Part shown: positions 37,890 through 53,493 of the stretch, one piece after another
Position numbering within the stretch: the stretch's first letter is position 1
Layout of the letters: every line of letters starts with the position of its first letter
Assembly: GCF_002217395.1 (NCBI RefSeq)
Contig: NZ_MUHD01000001.1
Span: 1-64,000, forward strand
Direction: 5' to 3'
DNA length: 64,000 bases
Origin: Flavobacterium plurextorum
GTDB taxonomy: Bacteria; Bacteroidota; Bacteroidia; Flavobacteriales; Flavobacteriaceae
Position numbers and translations under genes: made by a program
Notes under the pieces: generated by a model
Told to the model about the DNA's origin: nothing
Databases searched by the model: none
The model's input: only the letters and a program-made list of their open reading frames with translations

Positions 37890-37931
37890 AATTATTTTTC
37901 TTTATTATTCTTAAGAATCAAAATCTATTTT

Positions 37932-40025
37932 TTAATCTGGACAAGTTTGTTGTGACATTGCTTTCCAAGATGTGCCATTGTATAGTTTAATAACTTTGTT
38001 TACGGTATCGTAAACAATCATTCCTTCTACAGGAGATGTAATTGCAGTTTCTGGAGAGGCTATTCTCGTTAATACTAAACCTTTTTCTTTTGATTCTAAT
38101 ATTAAACTTCCTGTTCTTGAATCGGCATAATTACGAGGCGTATCAACTCTGTCCAATGTTGATATAATTGTTTTAATAGGAAGTACTGTTCCTGTAGTAA
38201 CGGCAGGTTTATAACAAACGGCGCAAGATGCATCAAACGAAACGGTAAGACTTGCACTTGGAGAAGAACAACCGTAAAGCTCTGAATAAAATGATACTGT
38301 ATATAATCCCGCTGTACTCACATTTGTAGGATCTGCAACTAATACTCCTGACCCATTTTTCCATTGTATCTCTACGCCCAAAGGAGGCTGCGAAGTTAAA
38401 TAACTGTTTAAATCAAATGTAGTTCCTAAACAGGGTTTAGCGGTTGCAGTGCTCAAAACTGGTGCATCGTCCCCTGCTTCACAGGCAAAAATTAGAGCAT
38501 TTTCACTATTAAAAGTACCAGGAGTTGTACCAAAATCTATCGAAATACCAATACCATTATCAGTACCAGCAGCAGGATTAATCAAATTACCAAAAGCCAT
38601 ATAAGCAGCTGTCGATCTATTCAAATTGCCATTAAGAAGAGTATAAGCTGCGGAAAAATATCCTGACCATGCTACACCGCTTTTGTATTGAAAGGCTTCA
38701 TACGAAGACGATGCTTGTTTAAACACACCCATTACATAATTCGGAGCCGTTCCTCTAACAAATCCTGGCCCATTATCTCCACCACTTAAATAGGTATCCC
38801 ATCCGTGCGCCAATTGCACTTTATCAGTGTTACCAGGTGGTATGGTAACTATGTAATCAATAGTAACAGATGGTTCAGGATAATTATAAGTATATTTTAC
38901 ATCCAGTAAATAGGTCAATCCATTTTTTTCTGCCTTCATTTTAATGGTATTCTCAAAATGTCCGGGAGGTGATTCTATAAGCGACTGCTGTGTACTTGTA
39001 ATAGGAACAAGGCTTTTATCCCCTACAGATCCTGTAGGACTCAAAGTACCACTTTTGAAAATATCCCTGCCAATAGAAAGCGCCAAACCATGTGTACTTC
39101 CAGGTATATCAAATGGTTTTGTTGTACCTTCTATTAAACTTTTAGCAGAACTATAAATTTGGTAAGTATTCTTTCTCATGATCTGCATATTCCCTGCTCC
39201 AGAAATATTAAGTCTAATACCATCGCTGGCATTTTTGCCTCCAGGAGCATTAATAACTGTTTGTCCATAATAACCTATAATGGTACTTTTATTTATAAAA
39301 CGATACAACTGTCCGCTTGCTGGACGAGAAATAATAGGCTTTACAAAGGTTTGTGATGTTCCTGGATTTGTTCCCGGATCTGTGAGCCATAATTGTGCCG
39401 CTGTTTCGCCATATATATCTTCTTTACCAAAATAAAGTCCAATAGCAGCAACAGGAAGATTAGGAAGATTTGCACCTTGCTCATATATATACTCAATATT
39501 ATTAGTCCCTTCGTACAATTTTACTTGAAAGCTTATTACATTAGGGTTACTATTGTAACTCCATTTCCAGCTTTTCCATTCTGCCGTAAGCACTCGATTA
39601 GGTGCAGCACCACTCGTTTGATAGGAAAAAGTTCCTCCCACCCCGCTTAAATCCGCTGCTAAGGGAGCTAAAACAAGCGCATTTCCTGTTGGTGCAACGG
39701 TAAATGCCTTTGTAACACCAGCCTTAAACGTAATATGACCGTTTGAACTAGCATAAAAGGTTGTATGATCCTCACGACCAGTATTGAACGTAAAACCTAT
39801 AGGCAATGCTGTACTCACACCTTCATCAGCATTAACAGCAACTACTTTCGTACCTCCAACTAATGGCACAAATACACTGTTTTCAGCCTGCATTGTTAAA
39901 TCACTTGTTATACGTGCCATTTGCTGTTCCTGAGCTGTAATCTTTGCAGGAAACGATAACAAAAGAGTAAAGAGTATAAAAAAACAAAATCCAATTGCAT
40001 TGCTTTTGTTAACATTTTGTATCAT
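37932..40025 (-). CDS. Large secreted protein of the fibre cluster
   Basis: A 697-residue protein with an export signal at residues about 9-32 (ending ITAQE). The body is beta-rich with repeated GxTF/AxxGHITF segments (about 75-110), an INAPGGKNASDGIRLNISG stretch near 265, and an Ig-like CFDLN/CYKP region near 540-605. The last 90 residues carry the same IVYDTVNKVIKLYNGTSW module as the neighbouring 169-residue protein. I see no type A or type B sorting domain. I do not recognise a family for the body. Transcription is predicted from the operator-promoter module at 40124-40176, which leaves a leader of about 90 bases. Confidence 0.75.
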   Translation of the reverse strand: MIQNVNKSNAIGFCFFILFTLLLSFPAKITAQEQQMARITSDLTMQAENSVFVPLVGGTKVVAVNADEGVSTALPIGFTFNTGREDHTTFYASSNGHITFKAGVTKAFTVAPTGNALVLAPLAADLSGVGGTFSYQTSGAAPNRVLTAEWKSWKWSYNSNPNVISFQVKLYEGTNNIEYIYEQGANLPNLPVAAIGLYFGKEDIYGETAAQLWLTDPGTNPGTSQTFVKPIISRPASGQLYRFINKSTIIGYYGQTVINAPGGKNASDGIRLNISGAGNMQIMRKNTYQIYSSAKSLIEGTTKPFDIPGSTHGLALSIGRDIFKSGTLSPTGSVGDKSLVPITSTQQSLIESPPGHFENTIKMKAEKNGLTYLLDVKYTYNYPEPSVTIDYIVTIPPGNTDKVQLAHGWDTYLSGGDNGPGFVRGTAPNYVMGVFKQASSSYEAFQYKSGVAWSGYFSAAYTLLNGNLNRSTAAYMAFGNLINPAAGTDNGIGISIDFGTTPGTFNSENALIFACEAGDDAPVLSTATAKPCLGTTFDLNSYLTSQPPLGVEIQWKNGSGVLVADPTNVSTAGLYTVSFYSELYGCSSPSASLTVSFDASCAVCYKPAVTTGTVLPIKTIISTLDRVDTPRNYADSRTGSLILESKEKGLVLTRIASPETAITSPVEGMIVYDTVNKVIKLYNGTSWKAMSQQTCPD

Positions 40026-40123
40026 ATAAAAATATTTAAATAATTCATACTTTGCTCATTCTATTTAATCCTATCTAGAATTATCTTATAGTTCTCTAGC
40101 TTAATACGGATTTAAATATGGGC

Positions 40124-40176
40124 AAATTTACTGTGGCTGTGTTCTTTGAAACTGCCATTTAAAATCATAAAATCAA
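40124..40176 (-). promoter_or_regulatory. Fibre-regulon promoter, site C
   Basis: On the minus strand, -7 box TAAATTTG (40124-40131), a spacer of exactly 20 bases, then a 25-bp operator (40152-40176) beginning TGATTTTATGA and ending TGGCAGT. Same design as sites A, B and D. Directs the 697- and 169-residue protein genes. The remainder of 40026-40246 shows nothing else. Confidence 0.7.
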
Positions 40177-40246
40177 TACATAAAGACACAACCCTTTATA
40201 AATCAAAGGCGTATTTATATTTTTAAAGTATTAAAACCAACAATGA

Positions 40247-41482
40247 TTAATTGTTGTTGATATATAAATATCCTGCTTTGTCTTTGTAGTCACCATTGTT
40301 GGTTTTATATTTAAGGACATAAAAATAAGTTCCTGTTGGCAGCCCTTCATTTTTAGCTGTGGTAACTCTTCCTTCAGATATTCCTCTAAACCAATTGCCA
40401 TTGGCGCCGTAATTTGTAGTTTCGAATACTTTTACTCCATAACGATTAAAGATTTGTACAGAGTTATCAGGGAAATTTTCCAGTCCTTCAATGTTGAAAT
40501 AATCATTTTTTCCGTCTCCATTAGGCGATATTGCGTTATAAACAATTACATCAGTTGTTGCAACTGTGGTTTTTACTTTTCCAAGTGTAAAAATTCCTGT
40601 TTTATTTATGGCTGCGGTAACAGTTTCGTTTTGATTATCAACGGCAGATGTATAGTGCACCCATTTTGCTTGTGCTTCATCCCAGTTTACAATAGCCAGC
40701 GTATATCCAGAATCTTCTCTGGTTAATTCGTTTGGTGTTGTATTATTGCTCCATTTTAATGTTAAAGCTAAATCTATTACAGCTTGATTACTTTCAACCT
40801 TCCAATATTCATTGGGATTAATCAAAGTTATCAACTCCTCTTTTTGCATACGAGGACGCAATTCGTTTGAATTTTCGAAAACATATTTACTTTTAAAGAA
40901 GTCTTTGGAAATGCTGTTTTGACTGAAAGCAGATGGCCTGAAATAACCTCCATCTCCTATGGGAAATTGAAATTCATTTTTCCCAATATAGTCCACATAA
41001 CCATCAACATAACTATCATCATTTGTGTTTTTATGAACTGCATTTGCTTCAAAAATGACTATCCCTCCAGAATCTTTATTAGAAACTACTCCTTTGTAAA
41101 AATCAGAAACGCCATGAATACTAATTTCTGTCGACAATAAAAACGCAGGCTGAACCATTCGATTTTCAAACCTAACATTATTGAATTCACTTAACTCACT
41201 GCCCGAAATGACCTGAGCTCCAGCCGAACCTTTAAAATAAGTTAATCCAGAAGTTTCTTTTGGATTAAAGGTTACTAATCCGTCATTATTATAGCTTGAA
41301 TAAATCGTAAATTGTCCATCATTGATAAAATCTCCTGTTGGTTTGTTATCAAAATCTGCCACTGTAGCAAGCTCAGTTCCCGGCAAAATTGACATTTCTC
41401 CTATATTTGTGGTTTGTGCGCTAAGTTTACCAATAATAAAAAATAATACTGTAGCAGCTATTTTAAAAATAACTTTGGTCAT
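40247..41482 (-). CDS. T9SS type B-sorted surface protein
   Basis: A 411-residue exported protein (signal ending GKLSAQ, residue 22). The N-terminal half is beta-rich (TFNPKETSGLTYFKGSAGAQ, YVDGYVDYIGKNEFQFPIGDG). Residues about 318-411 are the gliding-motility-associated C-terminal (CHU_C, T9SS type B) sorting domain: YNAISPNGDGKNDYFNIEG, VQIFNRYGVKVFE, GLPTGTYFYVLKY, ending LYINNN. Type B cargo generally needs a PorP/SprF-like partner for secretion, and one is encoded in this cluster at 48782-49717. It follows the giant repeat gene by 104 bases containing a hairpin and has no copy of the regulon operator, so it is probably read by partial read-through. Confidence 0.85.
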   Translation of the reverse strand: MTKVIFKIAATVLFFIIGKLSAQTTNIGEMSILPGTELATVADFDNKPTGDFINDGQFTIYSSYNNDGLVTFNPKETSGLTYFKGSAGAQVISGSELSEFNNVRFENRMVQPAFLLSTEISIHGVSDFYKGVVSNKDSGGIVIFEANAVHKNTNDDSYVDGYVDYIGKNEFQFPIGDGGYFRPSAFSQNSISKDFFKSKYVFENSNELRPRMQKEELITLINPNEYWKVESNQAVIDLALTLKWSNNTTPNELTREDSGYTLAIVNWDEAQAKWVHYTSAVDNQNETVTAAINKTGIFTLGKVKTTVATTDVIVYNAISPNGDGKNDYFNIEGLENFPDNSVQIFNRYGVKVFETTNYGANGNWFRGISEGRVTTAKNEGLPTGTYFYVLKYKTNNGDYKDKAGYLYINNN

Positions 41483-41539
41483 ACTTTTTAATTTAAAGTG
41501 TTAATCTTAAATGTGACAAATTATACTAAAAACGATATA

Positions 41540-41576
41540 AAACACCTCAGTTATTCTATTCATAAAAGAGGTGTTT
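41540..41576. terminator. Hairpin after the giant repeat gene
   Basis: AAACACCTC (41540-41548) pairs with GAGGTGTTT (41568-41576). On the minus strand the T-tract is short, so termination may be partial, allowing some transcription of the following type B-sorted gene. Confidence 0.6.
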
Positions 41577-41586
41577 ATTCTTTGTT

Positions 41587-44500
41587 TTAGTTTGAACTCA
41601 CAGGAGCTGGATTGCTTGAAGTTGTGTTTTCTTCGATTAATTTTTCTAATCTTTCCAAACGCTCGTTCATTTTTGCAATCTCTTTGTCTTTTGCAATAAT
41701 TGCATTGTTTTGCTCAATTATATGCAAGTAGATCTCTTCTGTTTTTTCCAATAATTGGATTGATAATTCAGACATATTGAATGAATATCCTTCAGAAGTT
41801 CTTTCCAATTCGTTGATCGGCGTAATCCCAGGAAGGTGCTTATGAGTTTTAATATACTGCTCGATTTCTGCTAATCCTTTAAATTTATAATCTGCTTTAA
41901 TATCAGAGTATCCTTGGAAGTAATCTTCAAAAACGTAATCGGCATATGTACTATTAACTGTTGTAATAGAACCATTTATTCTCAGTTTTTCACCCGCTTT
42001 ACCAGATGGAGTATCAAACCCGATACCTACCCAGCCTTGTGTATAAATATTCTCTGTATTTGTAGTTGCTCCCGCTTTTGTAGTTGAACTAAACCAAGGC
42101 TCTTTTACGGCAGCGCTCAAATTAACTGATGTTACAAAATTATTCTCATCTTTATAATCTAATGTACCAGTTGTACCATTTACAGCAAGTGACGTCAGAG
42201 TTTGCGCATCTCCTACCATATCAACAAGATTAATTACTGTTGCTGGACCACTTTCGGCTTGGTAGCTTAATTTTTTTCCTGCAGCATCATAAGCAAGTGA
42301 TGTCAATGTTTCGTTTGATCCTACGAATTGTGTAAGTTCTGTTGCGAACTTAGAATCGTTTATAATTGTGCTTGCATTGTTGATTACATCCGCTACAACA
42401 TCGATTGTAGTTTGTGTATCATTTTCACTCTTATAAACATATTTACCGTCGTTGGCAGCATTTTTATCTAATGTTGTCAGTGTTTCTGCATCTCCAACCA
42501 TATCAACAAGTTTAATTACGGTTGCAGCTCCGCTTTCTGGCTGAAAGGTTAATGTTTTTCCTGTTGCATCATAAGCAAGTGATGTCAATGTTTCGTTTGA
42601 ACCTACAAATTGTGTAAGTTCTGTTGCGAACTTAGAATCGTTTATAATTGTGCTTGCATTGTTGATTACATCCGCTACAACATCGATTGTAGTTTGTGTA
42701 TCATTTTCACTCTTATAAACATATTTACCGTCGTTGGCAGCATTTTTATCTAATGTTGTCAGCGTTTCTGCATCTCCTACTAAATCAACAAGTTTAATCA
42801 CTGTTGCAGCTCCGCTTTCCGGCTGATAGGTTAATGTTTTTCCTGTTGCATCATACGCAAGTGATGTCAATGTTTCGTTTGAACCTACGAATTGTGTAAG
42901 TTCTGTTGCGAACTTAGAATCGTTTATAATTGTGCTTGCATTGTTGATTACATCTGCTACAACATCGATTGTAGTTTGTGTATCATTTTCACTCTTATAA
43001 ACATATTTACCGTCGTTGGCAGCATTTTTATCTAATGTTGTCAGCGTTTCTGCATCTCCAACCATATCAACAAGTTTAATTACGGTTGCAGCTCCGCTTT
43101 CCGGCTGATAGGTTAATGTTTTTCCTGTCGCATCATAAGCAAGTGATGTCAATGTTTCGTTTCCTTTTACAATTTCACTGATGTTCACTGTTTGTGTAAC
43201 TCCCGATGCATCTGCATATGTAAATTCGTTAGTTGTAGAATTAAACGATACTGTACCTTCTGACTTAGTAACAAAATTATTTAGAACATTCGTTACTGCT
43301 GGATTGTTTATGATGGTTTCAAAATTACTTGCAACATCGCCTACTACATTAATAGTAACATTGTCTCCTGCCTCATTTGCATAAGTATAACTTCCGTTAT
43401 TATTGTTTGTTATTGTAGTAACAGTTTCTTTTGCATCTACAAATTGAGTCAGCTCAGTTACAAACTTAGGATCGCTTAAGATTGTGCTTGAGTTATTGAT
43501 TACATCTGCTACAACATCGATTGCTGTCTCTGCACTATCTTCATTTTTATAAACATACTTTCCGTCATTAGCAGCATTTTTTACTAATGTTGTAATCGTT
43601 TCGTTTCCTTTTACAATTTCACTGATGTTCACTGTTTGTGTAACTCCTGATGCATCTGTATATGTAAATTCGTTGGTTGTAGAATTAAACGATACTGTAC
43701 CTTCAGACTTAGTAACAAAATTGTTCAAAACATTCGTTACTGCTGGATTGTTTATGATGGTTTCAAAATTACTTGCAACATCACCTACTACATTAATAGT
43801 AACATTGTCACCTGCCTCATTTGCATAAGTATAACTTCCGTTATTATTGTTTGTTATTGTAGTAACAGTTTCTTTTGCATCTACAAATTGAGTCAGCTCA
43901 GTTACAAACTTAGGATCGCTTAAGATTGTACTTGCATTGTTGATTACATCTGCTACTACATCAATTGTAGTTTGTGTATCATTTTCGCTCTTATAAACAT
44001 ACTTTCCGTCGTTTGCAGCATTTTTATCTAATGTTGTTAGCGTTTCTGCATCTCCAACCATATCAACAAGTTTAATTACTGTTGCAGCTCCGCTTTCCGG
44101 CTGATAGGTTAATGTTTTTCCTGTAGCATCATAAGCAAGTGATGTCAAAGTTTCGTTTCCTTTTACAATTTCACTGATGTTCACTGTTTGTGTAACTCCT
44201 GATCCATCTGTATATGTAAATTCATTAGTTGTAGAATTGAACGATACTGTACCTTCTGACTTAGTAACAAAATTGTTTAGAACATTCGTTACTGCCGGAT
44301 TGTTTATGATGGTTTCAAAATTACTTGCAACATCACCTAGTACATTAATAGTAACATTGTCTCCTGCCTCATTTGCATAAGTATAACTTCCGTTATTATT
44401 ATTTGTTATTGTAGTAACAGTTTCTTTTGCATCTACAAATTGAGTCAGCTCAGTTACAAATTTAGGATCGCTTAAGATTGTGCTTGCATTGTTGATTACA

Positions 44501-46167
44501 TCCGCTACAACATCAATTGCTGTCTCTGCACTATCTTCATTTTTATAAACATACTTTCCGTCATTAGCAGCATTTTTTACTAATGTTGTAATCGTTTCGT
44601 TTCCTTTTACAATTTCACTGATGTTCACTGTTTGTGTAACTCCTGATGCATCTGTATATGTAAATTCGTTGGTTGTAGAATTAAACGACACTGTACCTTC
44701 AGACTTAGTAACAAAATTGTTCAAAACATTCGTTACTGCTGGATTGTTTATGATGGTTTCAAAATTACTTGCAACATCACCTAGTACATTAATAGTAACA
44801 TTGTCTCCTGCCTCATTTGCATAAGTATAGCTTCCGTTATTATTGTTTGTTATTGTAGTAACAGTTTCTTTTGCATCTACAAATTGAGTCAGCTCAGTTA
44901 CAAACTTAGGATCGCTTAAGATTGTGCTAGAGTTATTGATTACATCGGCTACAACATCGATTGCTGTCTCTGCACTATCTTCATTTTTATAAACATACTT
45001 TCCATCATTAGCAGCATTTTTTACTAATGTTGTAATCGTTTCGTTTCCTTTTACGATTTCACTGATGTTCACTGTTTGTGTAACTCCTGATGCATCTGTA
45101 TACGTAAATTCGTTAGTCGTAGAATTGAACGACACTGTACCTTCAGACTTAGTAACAAAATTGTTTAGAACATTCGTTACTGCCGGATTGTTTATGATGG
45201 TTTCAAAATTACTTGCAACATCACCTACTACATTAATAGTAACATTGTCTCCTGCCTCATTTGCATAAGTATAGCTTCCGTTATTATTGTTTGTTATTGT
45301 AGTAACAGTTTCTTTTGCATCTACAAATTGAGTCAGCTCAGTTACAAACTTAGGATCGCTTAAGATTGTGCTAGAGTTATTGATTACATCGGCTACAACA
45401 TCGATTGCTGTCTCTGCACTATCTTCATTTTTATAAACATACTTTCCGTCATTAGCCGCATTTTTTACTAATGTTGTAATCGTTTCGTTTCCTTTTACAA
45501 TTTCACTGATGTTCACTGTTTGTGTAACTCCTGATGCATCTGTAAATGTAAATTCGTTAGTTGTAGAATTAAACGATACTGTACCTTCAGACTTAGTAAC
45601 AAAAGTGTTCAAAACATTCGTTACCGCAGGATTGTTTATGATTGTTTCAAAATTACTTGCAACATCGCCTACTACATTAATGGTTACTGGATTTTCTCCT
45701 GTCTCATTTAGGTAAGTATATGTACCATCATTATTGTTGGTTAAAGTTGTAATTGTTTCGTGTTTTTTTACGGAACTTCCAAAATCCAACGGTTGATTAG
45801 CGCCTGAATCATCTACAAACACAAACTCTTTTGTTACTGCATTATAAATAACAGTTCCTTTGTTAGATTCAACTTCACCGGCAATAACAATTCTATTCCA
45901 TTTGTTATCATACCAATAGTAATATCCTGGTTTAATATCTGCAGCTGTGGCAGTATTAAATACTAATAAACTATTTACATTGCCATTTGCAATTGTACTA
46001 GCATCTGTTGAATTCTTTAGTGGAATTCTAGGAATCAATATACCTTTATCATTTGCCACAACTTCTAATTGAGTAGAAGGATTTGGCATCGTAGTTCCAA
46101 TACCCACCTGGGAATAAGCTGAATAACTAGCTAGGATAAAAAATAATGGAAGTAATTTATTCTTCAT
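41587..46167 (-). CDS. Giant tandem-repeat fibre protein
   Basis: A 1526-residue exported protein (signal ending SAYSQ, residue 19). An N-terminal head module (VGIGTTMPNPSTQLEV, GILIPRIPL, YYYWYDNKWNRIV) is followed by six copies of a unit containing GTVSFNSTTNEFTYTDASGV and NISEIVKGNET, four of them at a strict 148-residue period, then about four 94-residue units with ETLTSLAYDATGKTLTYQP. The C-terminal 120 residues include YSDIKADYKFKGLAEIEQYI and a heptad coiled coil (IIAKDKEIAKMNERLERLEK), resembling trimeric tail-fibre ends where an S74-like chaperone region would sit. No T9SS sorting domain is visible, which is odd for a presumed surface fibre. Read from site B (46267-46319). Confidence 0.85.
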   Translation of the reverse strand: MKNKLLPLFFILASYSAYSQVGIGTTMPNPSTQLEVVANDKGILIPRIPLKNSTDASTIANGNVNSLLVFNTATAADIKPGYYYWYDNKWNRIVIAGEVESNKGTVIYNAVTKEFVFVDDSGANQPLDFGSSVKKHETITTLTNNNDGTYTYLNETGENPVTINVVGDVASNFETIINNPAVTNVLNTFVTKSEGTVSFNSTTNEFTFTDASGVTQTVNISEIVKGNETITTLVKNAANDGKYVYKNEDSAETAIDVVADVINNSSTILSDPKFVTELTQFVDAKETVTTITNNNNGSYTYANEAGDNVTINVVGDVASNFETIINNPAVTNVLNNFVTKSEGTVSFNSTTNEFTYTDASGVTQTVNISEIVKGNETITTLVKNAANDGKYVYKNEDSAETAIDVVADVINNSSTILSDPKFVTELTQFVDAKETVTTITNNNNGSYTYANEAGDNVTINVLGDVASNFETIINNPAVTNVLNNFVTKSEGTVSFNSTTNEFTYTDASGVTQTVNISEIVKGNETITTLVKNAANDGKYVYKNEDSAETAIDVVADVINNASTILSDPKFVTELTQFVDAKETVTTITNNNNGSYTYANEAGDNVTINVLGDVASNFETIINNPAVTNVLNNFVTKSEGTVSFNSTTNEFTYTDGSGVTQTVNISEIVKGNETLTSLAYDATGKTLTYQPESGAATVIKLVDMVGDAETLTTLDKNAANDGKYVYKSENDTQTTIDVVADVINNASTILSDPKFVTELTQFVDAKETVTTITNNNNGSYTYANEAGDNVTINVVGDVASNFETIINNPAVTNVLNNFVTKSEGTVSFNSTTNEFTYTDASGVTQTVNISEIVKGNETITTLVKNAANDGKYVYKNEDSAETAIDVVADVINNSSTILSDPKFVTELTQFVDAKETVTTITNNNNGSYTYANEAGDNVTINVVGDVASNFETIINNPAVTNVLNNFVTKSEGTVSFNSTTNEFTYADASGVTQTVNISEIVKGNETLTSLAYDATGKTLTYQPESGAATVIKLVDMVGDAETLTTLDKNAANDGKYVYKSENDTQTTIDVVADVINNASTIINDSKFATELTQFVGSNETLTSLAYDATGKTLTYQPESGAATVIKLVDLVGDAETLTTLDKNAANDGKYVYKSENDTQTTIDVVADVINNASTIINDSKFATELTQFVGSNETLTSLAYDATGKTLTFQPESGAATVIKLVDMVGDAETLTTLDKNAANDGKYVYKSENDTQTTIDVVADVINNASTIINDSKFATELTQFVGSNETLTSLAYDAAGKKLSYQAESGPATVINLVDMVGDAQTLTSLAVNGTTGTLDYKDENNFVTSVNLSAAVKEPWFSSTTKAGATTNTENIYTQGWVGIGFDTPSGKAGEKLRINGSITTVNSTYADYVFEDYFQGYSDIKADYKFKGLAEIEQYIKTHKHLPGITPINELERTSEGYSFNMSELSIQLLEKTEEIYLHIIEQNNAIIAKDKEIAKMNERLERLEKLIEENTTSSNPAPVSSN
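42190..45750 (-). repeat. Near-identical 444-bp and 282-bp coding repeats
   Basis: Within the fibre gene the unit containing NISEIVKG recurs at 444-bp steps, with one 552-bp step and six occurrences between about 43.15 and 45.75 kb. A second unit recurs at exactly 282 bp, four times between about 42.29 and 43.14 kb. Units differ by only a few bases each, mostly synonymous. All periods are multiples of three, so copy-number change keeps the frame. Confidence 0.9.
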
Positions 46168-46266
46168 AAGATTTAATAATTATGAGTTATCTTTTTATTT
46201 GTAACCTTTATTCTAAAATTTAAACCAGCTGACTTTTTCTCTAACTGTTAAATTTTAAATTCGGGG

Positions 46267-46319
46267 CAAAATTATGTCCTAAGTATTTTTCAGAACTACC
46301 ACATAAACTTTTAAAATCA
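46267..46319 (-). promoter_or_regulatory. Fibre-regulon promoter, site B
   Basis: On the minus strand, -7 box TAATTTTG (46267-46274), a 20-base spacer, then the 25-bp operator (46295-46319) starting TGATTTTAAAAG and ending TATGTGGTAGT. It lies about 100 bases before the giant fibre gene. No -33 TTG is present, as expected for an activator-dependent promoter. Confidence 0.75.
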
Positions 46320-46430
46320 ATACAAAAAGTTACAAATCACCAAAACATCATAAATAATTACACTTCAAATAGTTATCACCACAAAAAACCTCTAAAACCT
46401 CCCATAAAAACGAAAATATATCCAACAAAA

Positions 46431-46465
46431 AAGAGCTTGAACTTACTTAAAAGTCAAACTCTTTT
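46431..46465. terminator. Terminator after the PD40-OmpA gene
   Basis: AAGAGCTTGA (46431-46440) pairs imperfectly with TCAAACTCTT (46453-46462), with A- and T-tracts outside. It ends the porP-ompA transcript and so makes site B necessary for the fibre gene. Confidence 0.6.
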
Positions 46466-46506
46466 TCTTACCAACTTACAAACTACCAAATCTAAATTTA
46501 TACGTT

Positions 46507-48759
46507 CTATTCTTTTATTACAATAATAAATTCCGAACGTCTGTTAAGCTCATGTTCTGCTTCTGAACATTGTACATCATTACTGCATTTATTAATCAAC
46601 TGCGATTCTCCATATCCATCTCCCCATACTCTATCTTGTGCAATTCCGCCTTCCAAAACAATATAATCCACTGTTGTTTTTGCTCTGTTTTTAGAAAGTC
46701 TCATATTGTAGTCATCTTTTCCTCTGCTGTCTGTATGCGATTTTACGAGAATAGAAATACTTGGACGAGTTTTTAATACATTGATAACTTTATCTAATTC
46801 TAATTTTGATGATTTTCGAAGTGTATATCCTCCATAATCAAAGTAAATAGGTCTTAATTTTAATTTCTCTGTCAGATTATCACCTTCTTTAAGAATCAAT
46901 ACTTGATTGTCGACAACAACTTCCAGTTCATTAAATAATACAGCTTGTATTTCTTTCTTTTCACCAATTTTAATTCCCTTCGCAGCTATTTTTTCAGCTG
47001 TATAACCTTTCTTTTTAAACTCGAAAGTGTAATTTTTAAGCGGCTCGAGATCAACGGAAAACTTTCCTGATTCATCGCTGTATATTGTTTTTATTTTCTC
47101 TTTTAAATCATTAAAAATAGTTACCTCAACTTCACGTAATGCTTTACCAGATATACTGTCTTTTATGGTTCCAGAATAAACTGGGTTCAATTTAAAAGGA
47201 AATATTATTGATTTTGTTTCTAAAAATGTGTACAAATCATCATCACCGGTTCCACCTTTTCTATTAGAAGAGAAAAACCCTTTTTTCGAATCACTGTCGA
47301 TGCTGTATGCAAAATCATCACTTGTAGAATTTACAGGCTCGCCAACATTTGCAACTACATACTTATCATCTTTATCTTTTACGGCCGCAAAAATATCTAA
47401 GCCTCCTAAACCAGGATGCCCATCTGATGAGAAGTACAATACACCGCTGTTATCTACAAAAGGAAAAGTTTCTCGACCGTAGGTATTTATTTCTTCTCCT
47501 AAAGGTTCTGCTTTATTCGCAAAACCGCCGCCTTTTTTTCTGCTTACGACATATAAATCAGTGTCGTTTGTTTTCTTTTTTCTGTTCGACACAAAATACA
47601 AGTCATCATTATTCGCGCTCAAAGCAGGATGTGCCGAAGAGGTTCCTTCGACATTTATCGGATAAGGAAGTTCCTTAACATCGCCCCATTTATTGTTTAT
47701 TTTTTGAGCTTGAAAGATTTTCAGGTTAGAAATTGCTTTCTTATTTTTTGCTTTGTTTTTTATTTTGTCATAAACTACCAAGCGGGTAAAATACATCGTT
47801 AAACCATCATTTGTAATTACTGGTGTACTTTGATGGTATTTCGAATTAACATCTCCTGACAACTTCTTAGCATTATGCAAATTTCCGTCTTCGTCGATTT
47901 GCGCTGCATATAATTTAAGAAAAGCTTTTTCGCTCCAATTGTGTTTGCGTTTAAAAATACCAGAATCTTTGGCAGTAGCATAAATCACTTCTTTATACTT
48001 TGGCAGTTTTTCTGAAGATATGATTAGAAGATCAGTATTCTTAGAATCACTTTCCTTACTATTTACAATGAATTTTCCTTGGTTTTCTTTCTTTTTCTCC
48101 TGAATTAAAAACTCTCCTTTGGCTCCAAGTTTATTACCATCGTCACTTCGTCTTTTTTCAGCATTTTCTCTAATTATTCTATCTTTATCAGACTTTTCTG
48201 CTTGAACAATTTCAAGGTTTTGTTTAATTGCTTCTTCATTTGGAATTAATGCCGCTCCAAAGTCTGAAAATGGCGAATTTATTCCTGCTTCGCTCAAATT
48301 ATCGTATCGATCTGATTGTGCTGCAATGGCTTTTAAATAAATAGCTGGATCCCATTTTTTTGCTTCATCTTCTTTTCCTGCTTTCTTATAATAGGCATTC
48401 ATTACCGCCAATCCTTCTTTATGCTGCTCATTTGCTCTCAAACATACAGAATATCTATAATAATATTCTGGCGGAGCAGATGCAACATCTTCCATCATTT
48501 TGGTGTACCATTGCAATGCATTGTAATAATCTGCATTAAAAAAATAGGTATCTCCTAAACGAGCATATATTTCTTTAGAATCATATCCTTTACTCACTAA
48601 TTGCTCGTATAGTTTTCCTGCTTTTACAAATGAAAAATTTTCGTATTCTGCATTTGCTTTTGCTAGCTTTTTATCTTGCGTTTGCTGTTTCTGCGAAAAA
48701 CAAACTGTATTACTCAAACAAAAAAGCAACACAAATACTTTATGTATTTTTATTCTCAT
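46507..48759 (-). CDS. PD40-OmpA envelope protein associated with T9SS export
   Basis: A 750-residue exported protein (signal ending VCFSQ, residue 23). Order: TPR-like helices (about 30-150), a WD40-like/PD40 beta-propeller (about 250-510; STPVITNDGLTMYFTR, AHPALSANNDDLYFVSNR, DNSGVLYFSSDGHPGLGGLD), a carboxypeptidase-regulatory-like domain (about 530-615) and an OmpA peptidoglycan-binding domain (about 640-750; PIYFDYGGYTLRK, VKSHTDSRGKDDYN, LNRRSEFIIV). This architecture is typical of OmpA proteins encoded with PorP/SprF genes, as here (22 bases downstream of one), and similar proteins assist T9SS export of their partner cargo. Confidence 0.92.
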   Translation of the reverse strand: MRIKIHKVFVLLFCLSNTVCFSQKQQTQDKKLAKANAEYENFSFVKAGKLYEQLVSKGYDSKEIYARLGDTYFFNADYYNALQWYTKMMEDVASAPPEYYYRYSVCLRANEQHKEGLAVMNAYYKKAGKEDEAKKWDPAIYLKAIAAQSDRYDNLSEAGINSPFSDFGAALIPNEEAIKQNLEIVQAEKSDKDRIIRENAEKRRSDDGNKLGAKGEFLIQEKKKENQGKFIVNSKESDSKNTDLLIISSEKLPKYKEVIYATAKDSGIFKRKHNWSEKAFLKLYAAQIDEDGNLHNAKKLSGDVNSKYHQSTPVITNDGLTMYFTRLVVYDKIKNKAKNKKAISNLKIFQAQKINNKWGDVKELPYPINVEGTSSAHPALSANNDDLYFVSNRKKKTNDTDLYVVSRKKGGGFANKAEPLGEEINTYGRETFPFVDNSGVLYFSSDGHPGLGGLDIFAAVKDKDDKYVVANVGEPVNSTSDDFAYSIDSDSKKGFFSSNRKGGTGDDDLYTFLETKSIIFPFKLNPVYSGTIKDSISGKALREVEVTIFNDLKEKIKTIYSDESGKFSVDLEPLKNYTFEFKKKGYTAEKIAAKGIKIGEKKEIQAVLFNELEVVVDNQVLILKEGDNLTEKLKLRPIYFDYGGYTLRKSSKLELDKVINVLKTRPSISILVKSHTDSRGKDDYNMRLSKNRAKTTVDYIVLEGGIAQDRVWGDGYGESQLINKCSNDVQCSEAEHELNRRSEFIIVIKE

Positions 48760-48781
48760 AATTAATTTTAATTAGTTTTGG

Positions 48782-49717
48782 TTAGAAAAATCTTGGCGAC
48801 ATCATTCTAGATTTTGAGCCGCCTAATACTTCAAATCTTAAAAAGATTTCATGTGATCCTGAATTATAATTTGCCAATTTGGTTGTTTCGGCATCATAGG
48901 AATATCCTATAAACCAAGAATCTGAAATCTGGAATCCTGCTAGTGCACTTAATGATGCACTCCAACGATAAGCAAGTCCTGCCGTAAATTTTTCATTGAA
49001 TAAAAAGTTCGCAGAAATATCTGTTTGTAATGGAGCTCCTTGCACCGCTTTAGTTAATAAGGATGGCTTAAATTTTAGATTATAATCTAAATCAAAAACG
49101 TATCCTGCCATTAAATAATAATGCATACGCTCTTTTACAACAAAACTCTGCGATTCGTTTTTAGCAGATTTATCGTAATGACTGTTTTCTAACATATTAG
49201 GAATTGAAAGTCCTATGTATGATCTGTCTGAATGAAAATACACTCCTACTCCAACATTGGGAGAGAATTTATTATCGACGTTATTCTGAAATCTTGGGTC
49301 TGAAGGATCGTAAATATTCAATTTTGTAAAATCAACATCTAATAAGTTTGCTGTTCCTTTTAATCCAAATGATAATTTATAAAAGGGTGAGGTATCTATA
49401 GAATAGGAAAGATCTACTGAGATGTTGTTTTCTGTCATTGGCCCAATTCGATCATTGATTACTGATAATCCCAATCCCATATTCTCATTAATAGGTGAAT
49501 TAACAGATAGTGTATTAGTAACTGGAGCGCCTTCCAATCCCGCCCATTGTGTTCTATGCAATCCAAAAACACTTATTGTACCTCTTGAACCTGCATAAGC
49601 AGGATTGATATTAATAGTGTTGTACATATATTGGGTATATTGAGCGTCTTGCTGCCCAAACATAAGGCTCGAATAACAACATAATATAGTTACTATAAAT
49701 AAATTTATTTTTTTCAT
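48782..49717 (-). CDS. PorP/SprF-family T9SS outer-membrane protein
   Basis: A 311-residue outer-membrane barrel from the Met of MKKINLFIVTILCCYS; signal ends LMFGQ. The 42-codon upstream extension of the frame runs through the promoter and is rejected. QDAQYTQYMYNTININPAYAGS is the family signature at the mature N-terminus, followed by barrel strands (FGLHRTQWAGLEGAPVTN, GLGLSVINDRIG). PorP/SprF proteins are needed for secretion of particular type B-sorted adhesins; here the candidate clients are the type B-sorted protein at 40247-41482 and the fibre protein. First gene of its operon, read from site A. Confidence 0.92.
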   Translation of the reverse strand: MKKINLFIVTILCCYSSLMFGQQDAQYTQYMYNTININPAYAGSRGTISVFGLHRTQWAGLEGAPVTNTLSVNSPINENMGLGLSVINDRIGPMTENNISVDLSYSIDTSPFYKLSFGLKGTANLLDVDFTKLNIYDPSDPRFQNNVDNKFSPNVGVGVYFHSDRSYIGLSIPNMLENSHYDKSAKNESQSFVVKERMHYYLMAGYVFDLDYNLKFKPSLLTKAVQGAPLQTDISANFLFNEKFTAGLAYRWSASLSALAGFQISDSWFIGYSYDAETTKLANYNSGSHEIFLRFEVLGGSKSRMMSPRFF

Positions 49718-49743
49718 TTTACTCTTATTTTTAGAAATATGGG

Positions 49744-49796
49744 CAAAATTATAGCAACATAGTTTTTTGGTACTGCCACATAAATTCATAAAATCA
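49744..49796 (-). promoter_or_regulatory. Fibre-regulon promoter, site A
   Basis: On the minus strand, -7 box TAATTTTG (49744-49751), a 20-base spacer starting with an A-tract, then the 25-bp operator (49772-49796) starting TGATTTTATGAA and ending TATGTGGCAGT. The leader to porP/sprF would be about 20 bases. Confidence 0.75.
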
Positions 49797-49910
49797 TCAT
49801 GAAAAGGTTTACCGCATAAACAATTATAAACCAGACACATCAAAACGAAATGGAAGTTTCTATTGGGTTCGTTTTTATTCTAAAATCTAAGTGACTGTTT
49901 ATTTTAAAAT

Positions 49911-49943
49911 AAAAAACCCGATCACTTTACGCAATCGGGAAAT
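49911..49943 (-). terminator. Terminator after AraC module A
   Basis: CCCGAT (49917-49922) pairs with ATCGGG (49934-49939); on the minus strand it runs into a T-rich tract. The equivalent position after module B has a longer hairpin with the same CCCGAT core. Confidence 0.75.
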
Positions 49944-49967
49944 CTAAAAAAAAAGCAATCAAATATA

Positions 49968-50972
49968 TTACCATGTTTTACTTTTAAAAACAGAGCTGGG
50001 TATGTCTCCATAGTGTTTTTTATAAAGTGATGAAAAGTATGCTGTTTTATGATAGCCAAGTTCAAAAGCGATATCACTAATCGTTTTAAACTCGCCGCTT
50101 TTTAATAATTTATTTGCAAGCACTAATTTTTCTTTCTTGAAAAAAGATACGGCACTCATGCCAAATACATTTTCATATAAGATTCTGTATTTTGAAATAG
50201 ACATATTAGCAATCTCCGAAAGAATCTTTACTCCAGGAAAAGGTGATAAAAGATTGGACATTAAAAAATCTTGTGTTTTCATTATTGCTTTTAAATCTTT
50301 TTCTAAAAACAATCCAGTATTAGACATATCAATTTTTAACCGTTCTAGAAAATAACCAAAAAGTTTAAACGCAGTACTTTTTAGCAAAAATTCATAATTT
50401 GAATCACTCATGCTTTGCTGCTTTAAATTATGAAGTTCTACTTTACTTCGGCTGTCTATATGTCCGTAGTAAAACATTTCTCTTTTTTTGTTATCAAAAA
50501 TGTTCTTGAAATCTTTTTCTAAAACTGCACCGTGAAAATAATTTTTAATATATGTTTTTCGAATATACAATCGTAATGAATACGCTCTTTCTCCAACTTC
50601 TGAGACATAAGAACTTTGAAGATGACTGTCAATAATAGCAAAACCCAATTTTGATTTATATCCTGTATTATGTTTAACATTATCTATAAAATGTTTATTC
50701 AAATTGTCGCTCATATCATAATAAACAATCCAAAAATCTTCCTCAGAAGGCATTCTTGTCAAACGCATCGGCTCGTTTAATGTTAAATCAACAATAAGTA
50801 CAGAAACATCTGTAGAAAGTTCAATGAAATACCCAAAACCATTTACCTTTTTCTTCGGAAAATGAATTATTTTATTGTCGATTATTTTACATCCTAAACC
50901 GTCAATAAAATCTTGCTTGCCTTTTAATGTTAACGATGCGGTATGTTTAAATTCTGGTATTGTTAAATCCAT
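49968..50972 (-). CDS. AraC-family regulator, module A, second gene
   Basis: A 334-residue transcription factor. The C-terminal 90 residues form a double helix-turn-helix of the AraC type (ILSEIANMSISKYRILYENVF, then ISDIAFELGYHKTAYFSSLYKKHYG). The N-terminal 240 residues are an uncharacterised sensing domain with blocks PSEEDFWIVYYDMSD and MFYYGHIDSRSKVELHNLKQ, shared almost word for word with the product of 52504-53493. It begins eight bases after the preceding AraC gene. There is no membrane segment, so it is cytoplasmic. Together with its partner it is a prime candidate to bind the regulon operator, whose copy lies before this operon. Confidence 0.88.
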   Translation of the reverse strand: MDLTIPEFKHTASLTLKGKQDFIDGLGCKIIDNKIIHFPKKKVNGFGYFIELSTDVSVLIVDLTLNEPMRLTRMPSEEDFWIVYYDMSDNLNKHFIDNVKHNTGYKSKLGFAIIDSHLQSSYVSEVGERAYSLRLYIRKTYIKNYFHGAVLEKDFKNIFDNKKREMFYYGHIDSRSKVELHNLKQQSMSDSNYEFLLKSTAFKLFGYFLERLKIDMSNTGLFLEKDLKAIMKTQDFLMSNLLSPFPGVKILSEIANMSISKYRILYENVFGMSAVSFFKKEKLVLANKLLKSGEFKTISDIAFELGYHKTAYFSSLYKKHYGDIPSSVFKSKTW

Positions 50973-50980
50973 AATTTCTA

Positions 50981-51964
50981 TTACAGTAAACTTTGATATT
51001 CTTTTGGAAAAACTCCATACATCTGATGAAATCGTTTTGACAAATAAGAAACATTTGCATAATTTAATTTATGCGCCACTTCATTAACGGTAAACTTTCC
51101 TGTTTCTAATAGTTCTTTGGCTTTATTCAATTTATTATTATAGAAATAGGTTCCAGGATTTACACCCGAGATTTTCACAAACAGCTTTTTATATTTTGAG
51201 GGAGACATTCCTATTTGCTCTGCCAGAAAATTAATCCCCGGAAAAGGTCCGTCGATATTATTTTGCATCAATGCTTTAGAAGCAATAATATTCTTTACAT
51301 CAACATTAAATGTTTTTTCAATAATGCTCTTTTTAGTTTGAAGCTGTTTTAAATAACTAGCGGTTAATCCGTACACAAGTCCTTTAAAATATATTTCATA
51401 CAAAGAATTGTCGTAGGCAATTTTTCTAAAATCATTAATTAAAATTAAACTTTCTGTATTCATTCGATCTAAACGAAATGTTGCATTTCTTTTATTATCA
51501 AGAATGTTGTCAATCACCGTCGATGCTGCTTTACTTATTTTAGAGAAATACTCCTTTATATTATCTTTATCAAACAAAATACAAATCACATATATTCGGG
51601 TTCCTTTTTGGACCGTATAATCAGTATCAACTTTAGAGTCAATAATAGATAAATTATGCTTTAATTTTCCAATCGAAGCTGCTTCTTCATTAAGCATAAA
51701 ATCAACATCTGCATCAGTAAGGTAAAAATACAGCCCTATAAAATTGGTGTTTTTATTACGATATTTTAATCGCGTAGTTTCTTTATAAGTTGTATCGACC
51801 AGCATTGCTTTAATACCTTCTTCTATAGGCAGAATAAAATGTGTTCCTTGGTAAATTTCATTGTTTCCTTTAATGAAATTTCCTTCTATAGAACCTCCCA
51901 TTGCTTTCGCAAGAACTTCTATCCAACTTTGCGATGTACTGTAATGATGTGTAATTGTTTTCAA
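50981..51964 (-). CDS. AraC-family regulator, module A, first gene
   Basis: A 327-residue AraC-type regulator. N-terminal domain with WIEVLAKAMGGSIEGNFIKG and GTHFILPIEEGIKAMLVDTT; C-terminal helix-turn-helix pair (LAEQIGMSPSKYKKLFVKIS, VNEVAHKLNYANVSYLSKRF), ending FPKEYQSLL. It is a close paralogue of the product of 53503-54483 (same MGGxxxGxFIKG opening and same ending) and a distant paralogue of its operon partner. The two different but related subunits encoded together could form a heterodimer. It lies 15 bases after the small gene at 51980-52240. Confidence 0.88.
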   Translation of the reverse strand: MKTITHHYSTSQSWIEVLAKAMGGSIEGNFIKGNNEIYQGTHFILPIEEGIKAMLVDTTYKETTRLKYRNKNTNFIGLYFYLTDADVDFMLNEEAASIGKLKHNLSIIDSKVDTDYTVQKGTRIYVICILFDKDNIKEYFSKISKAASTVIDNILDNKRNATFRLDRMNTESLILINDFRKIAYDNSLYEIYFKGLVYGLTASYLKQLQTKKSIIEKTFNVDVKNIIASKALMQNNIDGPFPGINFLAEQIGMSPSKYKKLFVKISGVNPGTYFYNNKLNKAKELLETGKFTVNEVAHKLNYANVSYLSKRFHQMYGVFPKEYQSLL

Positions 51965-51979
51965 AATAAAAACGAGACT

Positions 51980-52240
51980 TTAAATGTTTTCAAATGCTGC
52001 TGATTTATCCTCTTTATACTTAAAAGTAAATTCCAGATTCGAACATTCAAGTACGTAACTTCTGTTTTTCTTTAAAACAGAATCCTTGATAAACAGTGTT
52101 TCATAAACCCCAAAAGCTTCATGCTCTTTTGCAGACAAATCATCGTGACAAGTCCAGTTTTCTAATACATCCTTGTAAACCAAATGTCCATTAACCATGT
52201 ATTGTTTATGATCTGTAAGTGGTATTATTTTTACGCTCAT
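51980..52240 (-). CDS. Small protein of unknown function heading the AraC operon
   Basis: An 86-residue protein without signal peptide or membrane segment. It is mixed in charge, with an acidic middle (HDDLSAKEHEAFGVYETLFI) and a strand-rich second half (YVLECSNLEFTFKYKED). I recognise no family. It is the first gene after site D and is co-transcribed with two AraC genes (15-base gap). Module B has no equivalent. A ligand-binding or anti-activator role is possible but only by position. Confidence 0.6.
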   Translation of the reverse strand: MSVKIIPLTDHKQYMVNGHLVYKDVLENWTCHDDLSAKEHEAFGVYETLFIKDSVLKKNRSYVLECSNLEFTFKYKEDKSAAFENI

Positions 52241-52339
52241 CTTTTAGATTTAAAAAGCAGCACAGCTTTTATCATAACTCTTTATAAAAACAGCACTTTC
52301 TTAAAATTGTTAAGTAACAGTTCTACTGAAAATAGATGG

Positions 52340-52392
52340 CAAAAATAATGTGACCTCAGCTTTTTGAACTACCACACATAATTATAAAATCA
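52340..52392 (-). promoter_or_regulatory. Fibre-regulon promoter, site D
   Basis: On the minus strand, -7 box TATTTTTG (52340-52347), a 20-base spacer, then the 25-bp operator (52368-52392) starting TGATTTTATAAT and ending TGTGGTAGT. It drives the small gene and AraC module A, which implies autoregulation. Confidence 0.75.
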
Positions 52393-52436
52393 ACATTATA
52401 AGCTACATATACTATATTCTTTGCTGTTTTTAAAGC

Positions 52437-52503: not shown

Positions 52504-53493
52504 CTATTTACGCACTGTATTAGGCAGCACTCCAAAGTAATCTCTATAAATAGAAGAGAAATAAGTGGTTTTATTATATCCTAACTCATAAGCAACATCG
52601 CTGATTAATTTAAAACTGCCGCTTTCTAATAGTTCTTTTGCGAGGAGCAGTTTTTCAATCTTAAAAAATAACGGCGGACTCATTCCAAATATACTGTTGT
52701 ATAAAGCTCTATATTTTGTGGGCGACATATTGGCAATATTGGCTAGGAATTCGATCCCTGGAAACGGAATTAAAAGATTGGATAATAAATGCTGCTGACT
52801 TAACATAACTGCTTCAATATCTTTCTCTAAATGAGTTGCCATACCGGGCATTTTAGTGTTTAATCTTTCTATTAAATATCCAAGTAAATTGTATGCAGCT
52901 CCTTTTAGCAAAAATTCATAATTAGGATTATCAATTTCCCGCTGTTTTAAAGCATTTAATACTACTTTGCTTCTGCTGTCTATGTGACCGTAAAAGAACA
53001 TTTTCTTTTTTTTATCATCAAAAACATCTTTAAAATCCTTTTCAAATTCGGTATCTTTAAAAAATGTTTTTAAATAAGATTTTCTAATAAACAATCTTAA
53101 GGTATAGAATCGTTCTCCCACTGTTGAGAGATAACTACTTTTGATTTTATTATCTACAATCGCGAAACTTAATTTGGATTTATATCCTATTTTATGATTT
53201 ACATCGTCTATTACATGCTTACTAACACTGTCGCTCAAATCATAATAAACGATCCAGAAATCATCCTCAGAAGGTATACGTGTAAATCGAAGTGGTGTAT
53301 TCATAATTGAATCGACAATAACCACTGAAAAATTTGGGTTAATTTCTAAGAAACAGCTTGAACCGCTTGCAACTTCTTCTGGGAAATACATGTTTTCATT
53401 AACAATTGTACATCCTAAATCATCAACAAATTTTTGCCGCCATTCAGGAGTTAAGTAATACGTATGCTTAAATTCTGGAAGTACTTCGCTCAT
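52504..53493 (-). CDS. AraC-family regulator, module B, second gene
   Basis: A 329-residue AraC-type regulator, paralogue of the product of 49968-50972: it shares PEFKHT at the start, IPSEDDFWIVYYDLSD, MFFYGHIDSRSKVVLNALKQ and the C-terminal helix-turn-helix pair (LANIANMSPTKYRALYNSIF, ISDVAYELGYNKTTYFSSIY). It begins nine bases after the first gene of the module. Recognition helices (SPTKYRALY, NKTTYFSS) are nearly the same as in the module A copy, so both modules may read similar DNA. Confidence 0.88.
   Translation of the reverse strand: MSEVLPEFKHTYYLTPEWRQKFVDDLGCTIVNENMYFPEEVASGSSCFLEINPNFSVVIVDSIMNTPLRFTRIPSEDDFWIVYYDLSDSVSKHVIDDVNHKIGYKSKLSFAIVDNKIKSSYLSTVGERFYTLRLFIRKSYLKTFFKDTEFEKDFKDVFDDKKKKMFFYGHIDSRSKVVLNALKQREIDNPNYEFLLKGAAYNLLGYLIERLNTKMPGMATHLEKDIEAVMLSQQHLLSNLLIPFPGIEFLANIANMSPTKYRALYNSIFGMSPPLFFKIEKLLLAKELLESGSFKLISDVAYELGYNKTTYFSSIYRDYFGVLPNTVRK

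Follow-up and report, generated by a model that had tools for sequence, protein, structure and literature searches.

Rns and ToxT are pilus regulators that exert local control over surface structures, and some AraC proteins act as repressors. At a class II AraC-dependent promoter the operator lies directly upstream of the core promoter and reaches the place of the upstream element; the usual position of an activator is immediately upstream of the core promoter.

A PorP-PorE-type B CTD surface complex and the corresponding operons are described in passages of PMC9143113 and PMC12618676; in neither text does a word begin with 'AraC'. Transcriptional control of an SprF-containing adhesin operon is described, in passages of PMC9723704, for remFG-sprCDBF of F. 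psychrophilum, which has a sigma-54 promoter and another alternative-sigma promoter. Among the open-access matches listed, no title or abstract opening was recognised as describing control of PorP/SprF or type B clusters by AraC proteins; in passages of PMC5714932 and PMC13211072 the 'AraC' words refer to a genomic island and to the genus Arachidicoccus. Nor did we find, in the literature passages available, a description of how a Flavobacterium chooses among its many PorP/SprF-linked surface systems. The genome studied here has 17 PorP/SprF genes above the model cut-off.

We analysed a 64,000-nucleotide stretch of Flavobacterium plurextorum DNA (hereafter the window). Four operator-promoter modules on the minus strand of a single 12-kb stretch (40123-40175, 46267-46319, 49744-49796 and 52340-52392) fit the pattern TGATTTTA-N10-TGGYAGT-N20-TAnnTTTG. 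Judged from sequence comparison, they are probably primary-sigma promoters, each with an operator of ~40 bp, that are activated by adjacent type A and type B AraC proteins. Neighbouring AraC-type regulators most likely switch on secreted cell-surface fibre genes jointly, and the cluster is likely to form a local regulon in which AraC proteins control type IX-secreted surface proteins (Table 1).

Table 1. Predicted genes and promoter elements of the cluster, with positions in the window.
Feature	Position	Strand	Remarks
AraB1, AraC-family regulator, type B	53503..54483	minus	no operator copy before gene
AraA1, AraC-family regulator, type A	52504..53493	minus	
Operator copy A (~40 bp)	52368..52407	minus	precedes p86-AraB2-AraA2 operon
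-7 box TATTTTTG, copy A	52340..52347	minus	predicted start ~52335, leader ~95 nt
p86, 86 residues	51980..52240	minus	no Pfam or NCBIfam match
AraB2, type B regulator	50981..51964	minus	model: cupin-like N-terminal domain and double HTH
AraA2, type A regulator	49968..50972	minus	
Operator copy B	49772..49811	minus	precedes PorP/SprF-OmpA
-7 box TAATTTTG, copy B	49744..49751	minus	predicted start ~49739, leader ~25 nt
PorP/SprF-family outer-membrane protein	48782..49714	minus	TIGR03519 298 bits (cut-off 90.55); PF11751
PorE-like protein	46507..48759	minus	beta-propeller, carboxypeptidase-regulatory-like and OmpA domains; TPR match below cut-off
Operator copy C	46295..46334	minus	precedes 1526-residue repetitive protein
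-7 box TAATTTTG, copy C	46267..46274	minus	predicted start ~46262, leader ~95 nt
1526-residue repetitive protein, putative surface fibre	41587..46167	minus	
411-residue protein, T9SS type B sorting domain (CHU_C)	40247..41482	minus	TIGR04131 43.7 bits (cut-off 35)
Operator copy D	40151..40190	minus	precedes 697-residue secreted protein
-7 box TAAATTTG, copy D	40123..40130	minus	predicted start ~40118, leader ~93 nt
697-residue protein	37932..40025	minus	secreted by eye; no Pfam or NCBIfam match
169-residue protein	37380..37889	minus	secreted by eye

The four modules proposed in the initial annotation are all present on the minus strand; three of its coordinates are exact and the first, given as 40124-40176, is one base off. 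All four sites keep the 25-bp operator, followed after 20 bases by the TAnnTTTG box. As a core, the 25-bp operator is real, but it is too short: the 15 bp upstream of it are likewise conserved, and we therefore put the operator at ~40 bp, spanning about -72 to -33 relative to the predicted start. Starts were placed from the -7 box and the box-to-start distance given in passages of PMC6847099.

We infer the 'fibre' label from the repetitive nature of the 1526-residue protein and from the T9SS type B domain of its neighbour. For the PorE-like protein, the NCBIfam T9SS_PorE model gives 254.8 of 600 bits, and the best match is the CHU_0125 OmpA model (344.2 of 620). The 169-residue gene is likely co-transcribed with the 697-residue gene; the two stand in the same order in F. 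hydatis. Sequence homologous to p86, partial in some cases, occurs in eight of nine genomes with this cluster type (the window counted), and no homologue was found in F. bizetiae. The p86 model, itself of low confidence (pLDDT 67), matched no structure with an E-value of 0.001 or better.

The AraC proteins of the window form two tandem pairs of two types, A and B, and all four score above the cut-off of Pfam HTH_18. The N-terminal part of AraB2 has no Pfam match. In the AraB2 model, the HTH part matches AraC-family DNA-binding domains (Z 12-15), and the N-terminal part matches CuxR (Z 9.5), BgaR (8.4-8.8), RhaR (7.7-8.1) and AraC (7.3-8.0), with other cupins at Z 7.8 and below.

How exclusive is the motif? 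In the window we found four sites against 0.02 expected in shuffles at up to three mismatches, a circular figure in that the pattern was written from the same four sites. Across the 5.06-Mb genome, allowing up to two mismatches adds no site to these four, all in this cluster; three mismatches admit three further sites, the same number as the reversed control. Among 398 genomes of the genus, ten match at one mismatch or fewer (the reversed control gave one site): six have exact copies and four have a single one-mismatch copy that resembles chance. The same six genomes, and no others, have an AraB2 homologue of at least 66% identity; the best match elsewhere is 48%, a wide gap, the threshold having been read from the data. 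These six coincidences are not six independent events, motif and regulators being inherited together in one cluster.

The module sites of other species lie at orthologous places. In F. bizetiae the site departs from the pattern at two positions, and one genome (G313) has a single exact site, with no PorP in the 14 kb fetched. Another genome (G298) has an additional AraC pair, on contig C12, with a three-mismatch copy of the operator just downstream, ~0.43 kb before genes for three tandem proteins of 275-280 residues, of which the first, judged by eye, has a signal peptide.

At 23 of 45 loci with such AraC genes, pairs of this kind adjoin PorP/SprF clusters, both in Myroides and in other members of Flavobacterium; at the other 22 the DNA fetched contains no PorP, and some of these lie at contig ends. 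Pairs of two further clades have other operators in a similar register. One clade has seven sites with 23 of 62 columns invariant (shuffle mean 0.1, maximum 3) and the other four sites with 19 of 62 (mean 2.9, maximum 10), contrasts that are inflated because the sites were picked by eye. Operator type follows AraC clade in three clades, and AraC clades seem to have different operators. For the pairs of Myroides, L103-L105, Pedobacter and contig C23 of our own genome, reading the upstream regions by eye revealed no recognisable operator.

Two attempts at a common signal failed. We rejected the idea that all AraC pairs share one operator: a profile built from the window and G004 sites gave, above 8 bits at 28 loci, 20 matches (the G004 sites themselves included) against 13 in the reversed control. 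We likewise rejected a cross-family word, TTTATGNYTTA before a -7 box, with five matches in our own genome against two in the reversed control.

In one genome (G049) a C19-type operator precedes CHU_C-PorP-OmpA on contig C21, and the AraC pair lies on contig C16, ~175 kb or more from either contig end. This is the only independent match of the C19-type pattern, because the other six of the seven exact sites served to write the pattern. An exact site is absent from 12 of the 19 genomes searched, and four two-mismatch sites resemble chance; our own genome has no exact match, its C19 carrying only a variant, before PorP.

The unlinked pair and operator of G049 would suit a different transcription factor, encoded elsewhere, that binds the four operators of the window and has the AraC proteins merely as targets or neighbours, and one of these operators does precede AraC genes, as it would for any target. 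Against such a factor stand the coincidence of exact motif and close AraB2 homologue in the six genomes, the agreement of operator type with AraC clade and the near-copy beside the separate pair of G298; we consider it rather unlikely. The proposed AraC linkage, the local regulon and autoregulation of the second pair are supported by the exclusive co-occurrence, by the similar-register operators of related pairs and by footprint conservation (below). The G049 operator, the additional pair of G298 and the structural matches of AraB2 also speak for this reading.

The -7 box TAnnTTTG of the Bacteroidota primary-sigma promoter is present at all four sites and in the aligned orthologues. All four lack the -33 TTTG, with no TTG ending 17-23 bases before the box. 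The absence is real, but it is not diagnostic of activator dependence, being common in Flavobacterium promoters; we do not take it as proof, since the -33 element of F. johnsoniae promoters is weak in general according to passages of PMC7366714 and PMC6847099. For the same reason (PMC6847099) it is no bar to membership of the primary-sigma class. The A-tract, which the initial annotation had included in the module, occupies about -28 to -24, close to the -28 centre of an AT-rich motif that passages of PMC6847099 describe as a general feature of F. johnsoniae promoters, and we rejected it as an operator part.

The AraC proteins could bind the operators and mainly repress, blocking polymerase until a signal releases them. 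The operator end at about -33 touches the polymerase footprint and repressing AraC proteins exist, yet each operator lies where activators usually do, directly upstream of the core promoter and reaching the place of the upstream element, as in a class II AraC-dependent promoter, and all four promoters lack an upstream TTG, common though that is in Flavobacterium. Repression as the main mode is unlikely. The register of about -72 to -33 is as expected for class II AraC activation, activation itself being predicted.

Conservation traces a footprint. Between the window and 15 orthologous sites of six divergent genomes, identity is 89% in the core, 80% in the extension, 71% in the A-tract and 97% in the box, against 44% in the spacer, 33% upstream and 45% downstream. 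The claim that the conserved spacing is functional gains support from this comparison, core and box being kept as spacer and flanks diverged. Within genomes (30 site pairs, seven genomes) core and box are again kept (80% and 90%), and spacer and upstream sequence are unrelated (32% and 30%), so that recent copying does not explain the likeness. The possibility that a single promoter was recently multiplied through gene duplications, its four copies sharing no regulation, is largely contradicted and highly unlikely: the similar sequences do lie within one 12-kb stretch that has duplicated AraC pairs, but spacers and flanks are unrelated within a genome, the genes controlled differ in kind, and divergent species keep the operator where the flanks have changed.

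We propose that the ~40-bp operator is bound by the AraC proteins of types A and B encoded alongside, and that the bound regulator would replace the missing upstream promoter element and recruit RNA polymerase by class II AraC activation. No motif copy precedes AraB1-AraA1, the first pair, which probably senses the signal. The first or the second pair would then turn on p86-AraB2-AraA2, giving positive feedback, as well as the genes for PorP/SprF and its PorE-like anchor, for the repetitive surface protein and for the 697-residue secreted protein. The output would be type IX-secreted surface proteins, anchored by PorP and made in coordination. The idea that the AraC proteins regulate themselves fits p86-AraB2-AraA2, but it is limited to that operon because AraB1-AraA1 has no copy; a cascade with feedback fits better than self-regulation of all the AraC proteins. 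As a more tentative possibility, types A and B may form an obligate heterodimer on the asymmetric 40-bp operator, pair and operator making up a modular switch diversified into clade-specific, mutually insulated codes, one per type IX-secreted surface-fibre cassette. If so, a single Flavobacterium genome would carry several surface coats, each switched separately.

With the motif occurring four times, only at one PorP/SprF system and with its likely regulators beside it, the question of control becomes directly testable here. Moreover, type B surface clusters may share a more widespread kind of control unit, to judge from the related pairs that have different operators at a similar register.

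The regulators resemble the AraC/XylS class II activators AraC, RhaS, Rns and ToxT in their double HTH, cupin-like N-terminal domain and proposed operator adjoining the core promoter, and like Rns and ToxT they would control surface structures locally. They differ in that two different AraC proteins stand side by side and that the promoter is of the Bacteroidota TAnnTTTG type; in its best structural matches AraB2 is 12-16% identical to Rns and ToxT, and a T9SS type B cluster takes the place of their pilus targets. An AraC-type regulator tied to a surface protein gene is also what the title of the TIGR04094 model, YSIRK-adjacent, describes. Both AraB2 (43.4 of 200 bits, far below the cut-off) and AraA2 (26.9) score under that model's threshold, and YSIRK-adjacent surface antigens use a different secretion system. 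The cluster shares with P. gingivalis PG1035 and the SprF-like operons of F. johnsoniae its grouping of a PorP/SprF-family protein, a type B sorting domain and a PorE-like domain order, although, unlike in the PorP-PorE-type B complexes, its PorE-like protein falls below the NCBIfam PorE cut-off. As in remFG-sprCDBF, an SprF-family operon would be under transcriptional control; unlike there, it would be read from a primary-sigma box through an AraC-type operator.

The four modules are real. A search of the whole Flavobacterium plurextorum genome (5,062,246 bases, 65 contigs) with the pattern TGATTTTA-N10-TGGYAGT-N20-TAnnTTTG, which joins an operator to a -7 box across 20 bases, returned four exact matches, all inside one 12.3-kb stretch rather than scattered. 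Allowing three mismatches added three further matches, against three in a control search with the pattern reversed. The modules lie where the initial annotation had placed them, except that the first starts and ends one base earlier. Since these same four sites served to define the pattern, their number in the window (4, with 0.02 expected) is not an independent test; that test is comparison with other genomes. The 25-bp operator alone, at up to two mismatches, has six matches in the window against 0.63 expected.

Transcription on the minus strand runs from AraB1 and AraA1 through the four site-headed gene groups in the order tabulated. The four AraC proteins fall into types A and B and form two tandem B-A pairs; AraB2 is predicted to have AraC architecture. 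Sequence homologous to the 86-residue protein p86, which is without a known family, occurs in 8 of the 9 genomes with this cluster type.

Coordinates of the modules, in order of transcription, and of further observations (no prefix, window; G, genome; C, contig; L, extracted locus; G000, F. plurextorum; CHU_C, T9SS type B sorting domain)
Feature	Position	Strand	Genes or remarks
Module	52340-52392	minus	precedes p86, AraB2, AraA2
Module	49744-49796	minus	precedes PorP/SprF, PorE-like OmpA protein
Module	46267-46319	minus	precedes 1526-residue repetitive protein, 411-residue type B (CHU_C) protein
Module	40123-40175	minus	precedes 697-residue protein, 169-residue protein
Operator-only matches, 2 mismatches	18054; 22623	plus	
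Segment type KGLxLxRI...VYDTxxxxxKxYNGTxW (by eye)	37380-40025; 41587-46167		common to 697- and 169-residue proteins and N-terminus of 1526-residue protein
TTTATGTCTTATTGTGGAGG, then -7 box	G000:C20:137054-137101		~2.5 kb downstream of another F. plurextorum PorP/SprF gene
Partly matching operator and -7 box	G004, L028:4118	minus	precedes 1290-residue protein with CHU_C-associated Ig-like match
Operator-like site, 19 instead of 20 bases to -7 box (by eye)	L137:13769; L097:4651		precedes 174-residue protein; OmpH match below its cut-off
AraB-type gene	G121:C21:34313-35281 (L044, L084)		interrupted by one TAA stop codon
Sigma-54 response regulator	L061:16747-18081 (F. plurextorum C19); L068:1955-4373		adjoins C19-clade AraC pairs; in L068 a histidine kinase also adjoins
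Pectin-degradation genes (GH28, pectate lyase/esterase, GH43, GH88)	G049, L068:6809-16339		adjoin AraC pair; genes similar in size in L066, L070, L075

Among 398 genomes of the genus, exact motif copies occur in only six: F. plurextorum (4), G385 (4), G283 (3), G298 and G004 (2 each, plus one 1-mismatch copy each) and G313 (1). Four others hold a single 1-mismatch copy each, and the reversed control gave one site. The same six genomes are those with AraB2 homologues at 66% identity or more, the best match in any other genome being 48%; the six do not count as independent events, since the motif travels with the regulators in a single inherited cluster. In G298, contig C12 carries an additional AraC pair and a 3-mismatch motif copy ~0.43 kb before three tandem proteins of 275-280 residues, the first of which (the one translated) has a signal peptide by eye.

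Scanning named genomes with the B-type alignment yielded 22 loci. Orthologous sites were found in Flavobacterium sp. YO12 (three; locus incomplete), F. oncorhynchi and F. hydatis (four each), sp. KMS and F. frigoritolerans (three each, one with 1 mismatch), sp. ALJ2 (one) and F. bizetiae (one, with 2 mismatches); the remaining 15 loci gave a single 3-mismatch match in total. Identical site sequences identify G385 as the F. hydatis locus, G298 as that of F. frigoritolerans, G313 as that of ALJ2 and G004 as that of KMS. G283 adds three more sites. We compared the window in register with 15 orthologous sites from six divergent genomes. Identical positions number 334/375 in the core, 179/225 in a 15-bp extension and 116/120 in the box, with 96/135 in the A-tract, 73/165 in the spacer, 173/525 upstream and 279/615 downstream. 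Core and extension are kept and the flanks are not; the conserved operator is therefore ~40 bp long, not the 25 bp first proposed. The consensus from 26 sites is T.ta.CTTtt.aTg.TGATTTTAt.a.TtTatgTGGtAGT. The count excludes a G004 site that precedes a 1290-residue protein and deviates from the pattern at its right end; from its position, regulon targets may differ between species.

In F. johnsoniae promoters the T of TAnnTTTG lies at -12, transcription starts 4-5 nt past the box, and an AT-rich motif is general (PMC6847099). The A-tract of the modules falls near the place of that motif. With this start, the operator would span about -72 to -33. Such a location is the class II position of AraC-type activators, and an activator of this type would bind there beside the core promoter. 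The A and B trees agree in their main groups (by eye), which fits joint action of both types, a heterodimer being only a candidate form. The proposal that the AraC proteins regulate themselves stands for the second pair, whose operon a motif precedes; the window search found no copy before AraB1-AraA1, and feedback would act only at AraB2-AraA2. The missing -33 element, once read as a sign of activator dependence, is given no weight. With the operator, feedback and -33 element so corrected, the first reading of the modules is largely right.

Related pairs are found more widely. AraB1 homologues occur in 20 of 199 genomes (E 1e-20) and AraB2 homologues in 39 of 398 (E 1e-60). We examined 45 loci; from the 22 named ones, 6 were dropped, two as weak Segatella matches and four because they duplicated other members of the set. 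In 42 of the 45, each AraC type matches two or more stretches, and the retrieved DNA of 23 includes a PorP/SprF homologue. From the 17 PorP/SprF genes in the 5.06 Mb of F. plurextorum, we infer a chance rate of ~7% for finding one in a 20-kb stretch.

Other AraC clades appear to have operators of their own. In the clade of the F. plurextorum C19 pair, a different operator, with constant spacing to the -7 box, precedes a CHU_C-PorP-OmpA operon. Its seven sites have 23 of 62 upstream columns invariant (shuffle mean 0.1), and the third clade (four sites in three genomes, upstream of three AraB genes and one fibre-like gene) has 19 (shuffle mean 2.9, maximum 10); the shuffles overstate both contrasts because the sites were picked by eye. 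A pattern built from six of the seven C19-type sites, searched over 19 pair-bearing genomes (the 20 with AraB1 homologues minus G159), matched exactly at one site in each of seven genomes and, with 2 mismatches, at four more sites; the reversed control gave none in those 19. The seventh site, on G049 contig C21, precedes CHU_C-PorP-OmpA, and the AraC pair of that genome is on contig C16 instead. Neighbouring regulator and kinase genes suggest a two-component signal above the C19-clade pair.

Visual comparison of the alignments shows a common CTT-like word near -67; a TTTT near -54 is shared by the window type and third clade, and a GG near -37 by the window and C19 types. The best description of the modules is a putative AraC regulon that acts locally on a PorP-anchored surface cluster secreted by the type IX route; Flavobacterium probably has several such units of pair and operator, related to one another.
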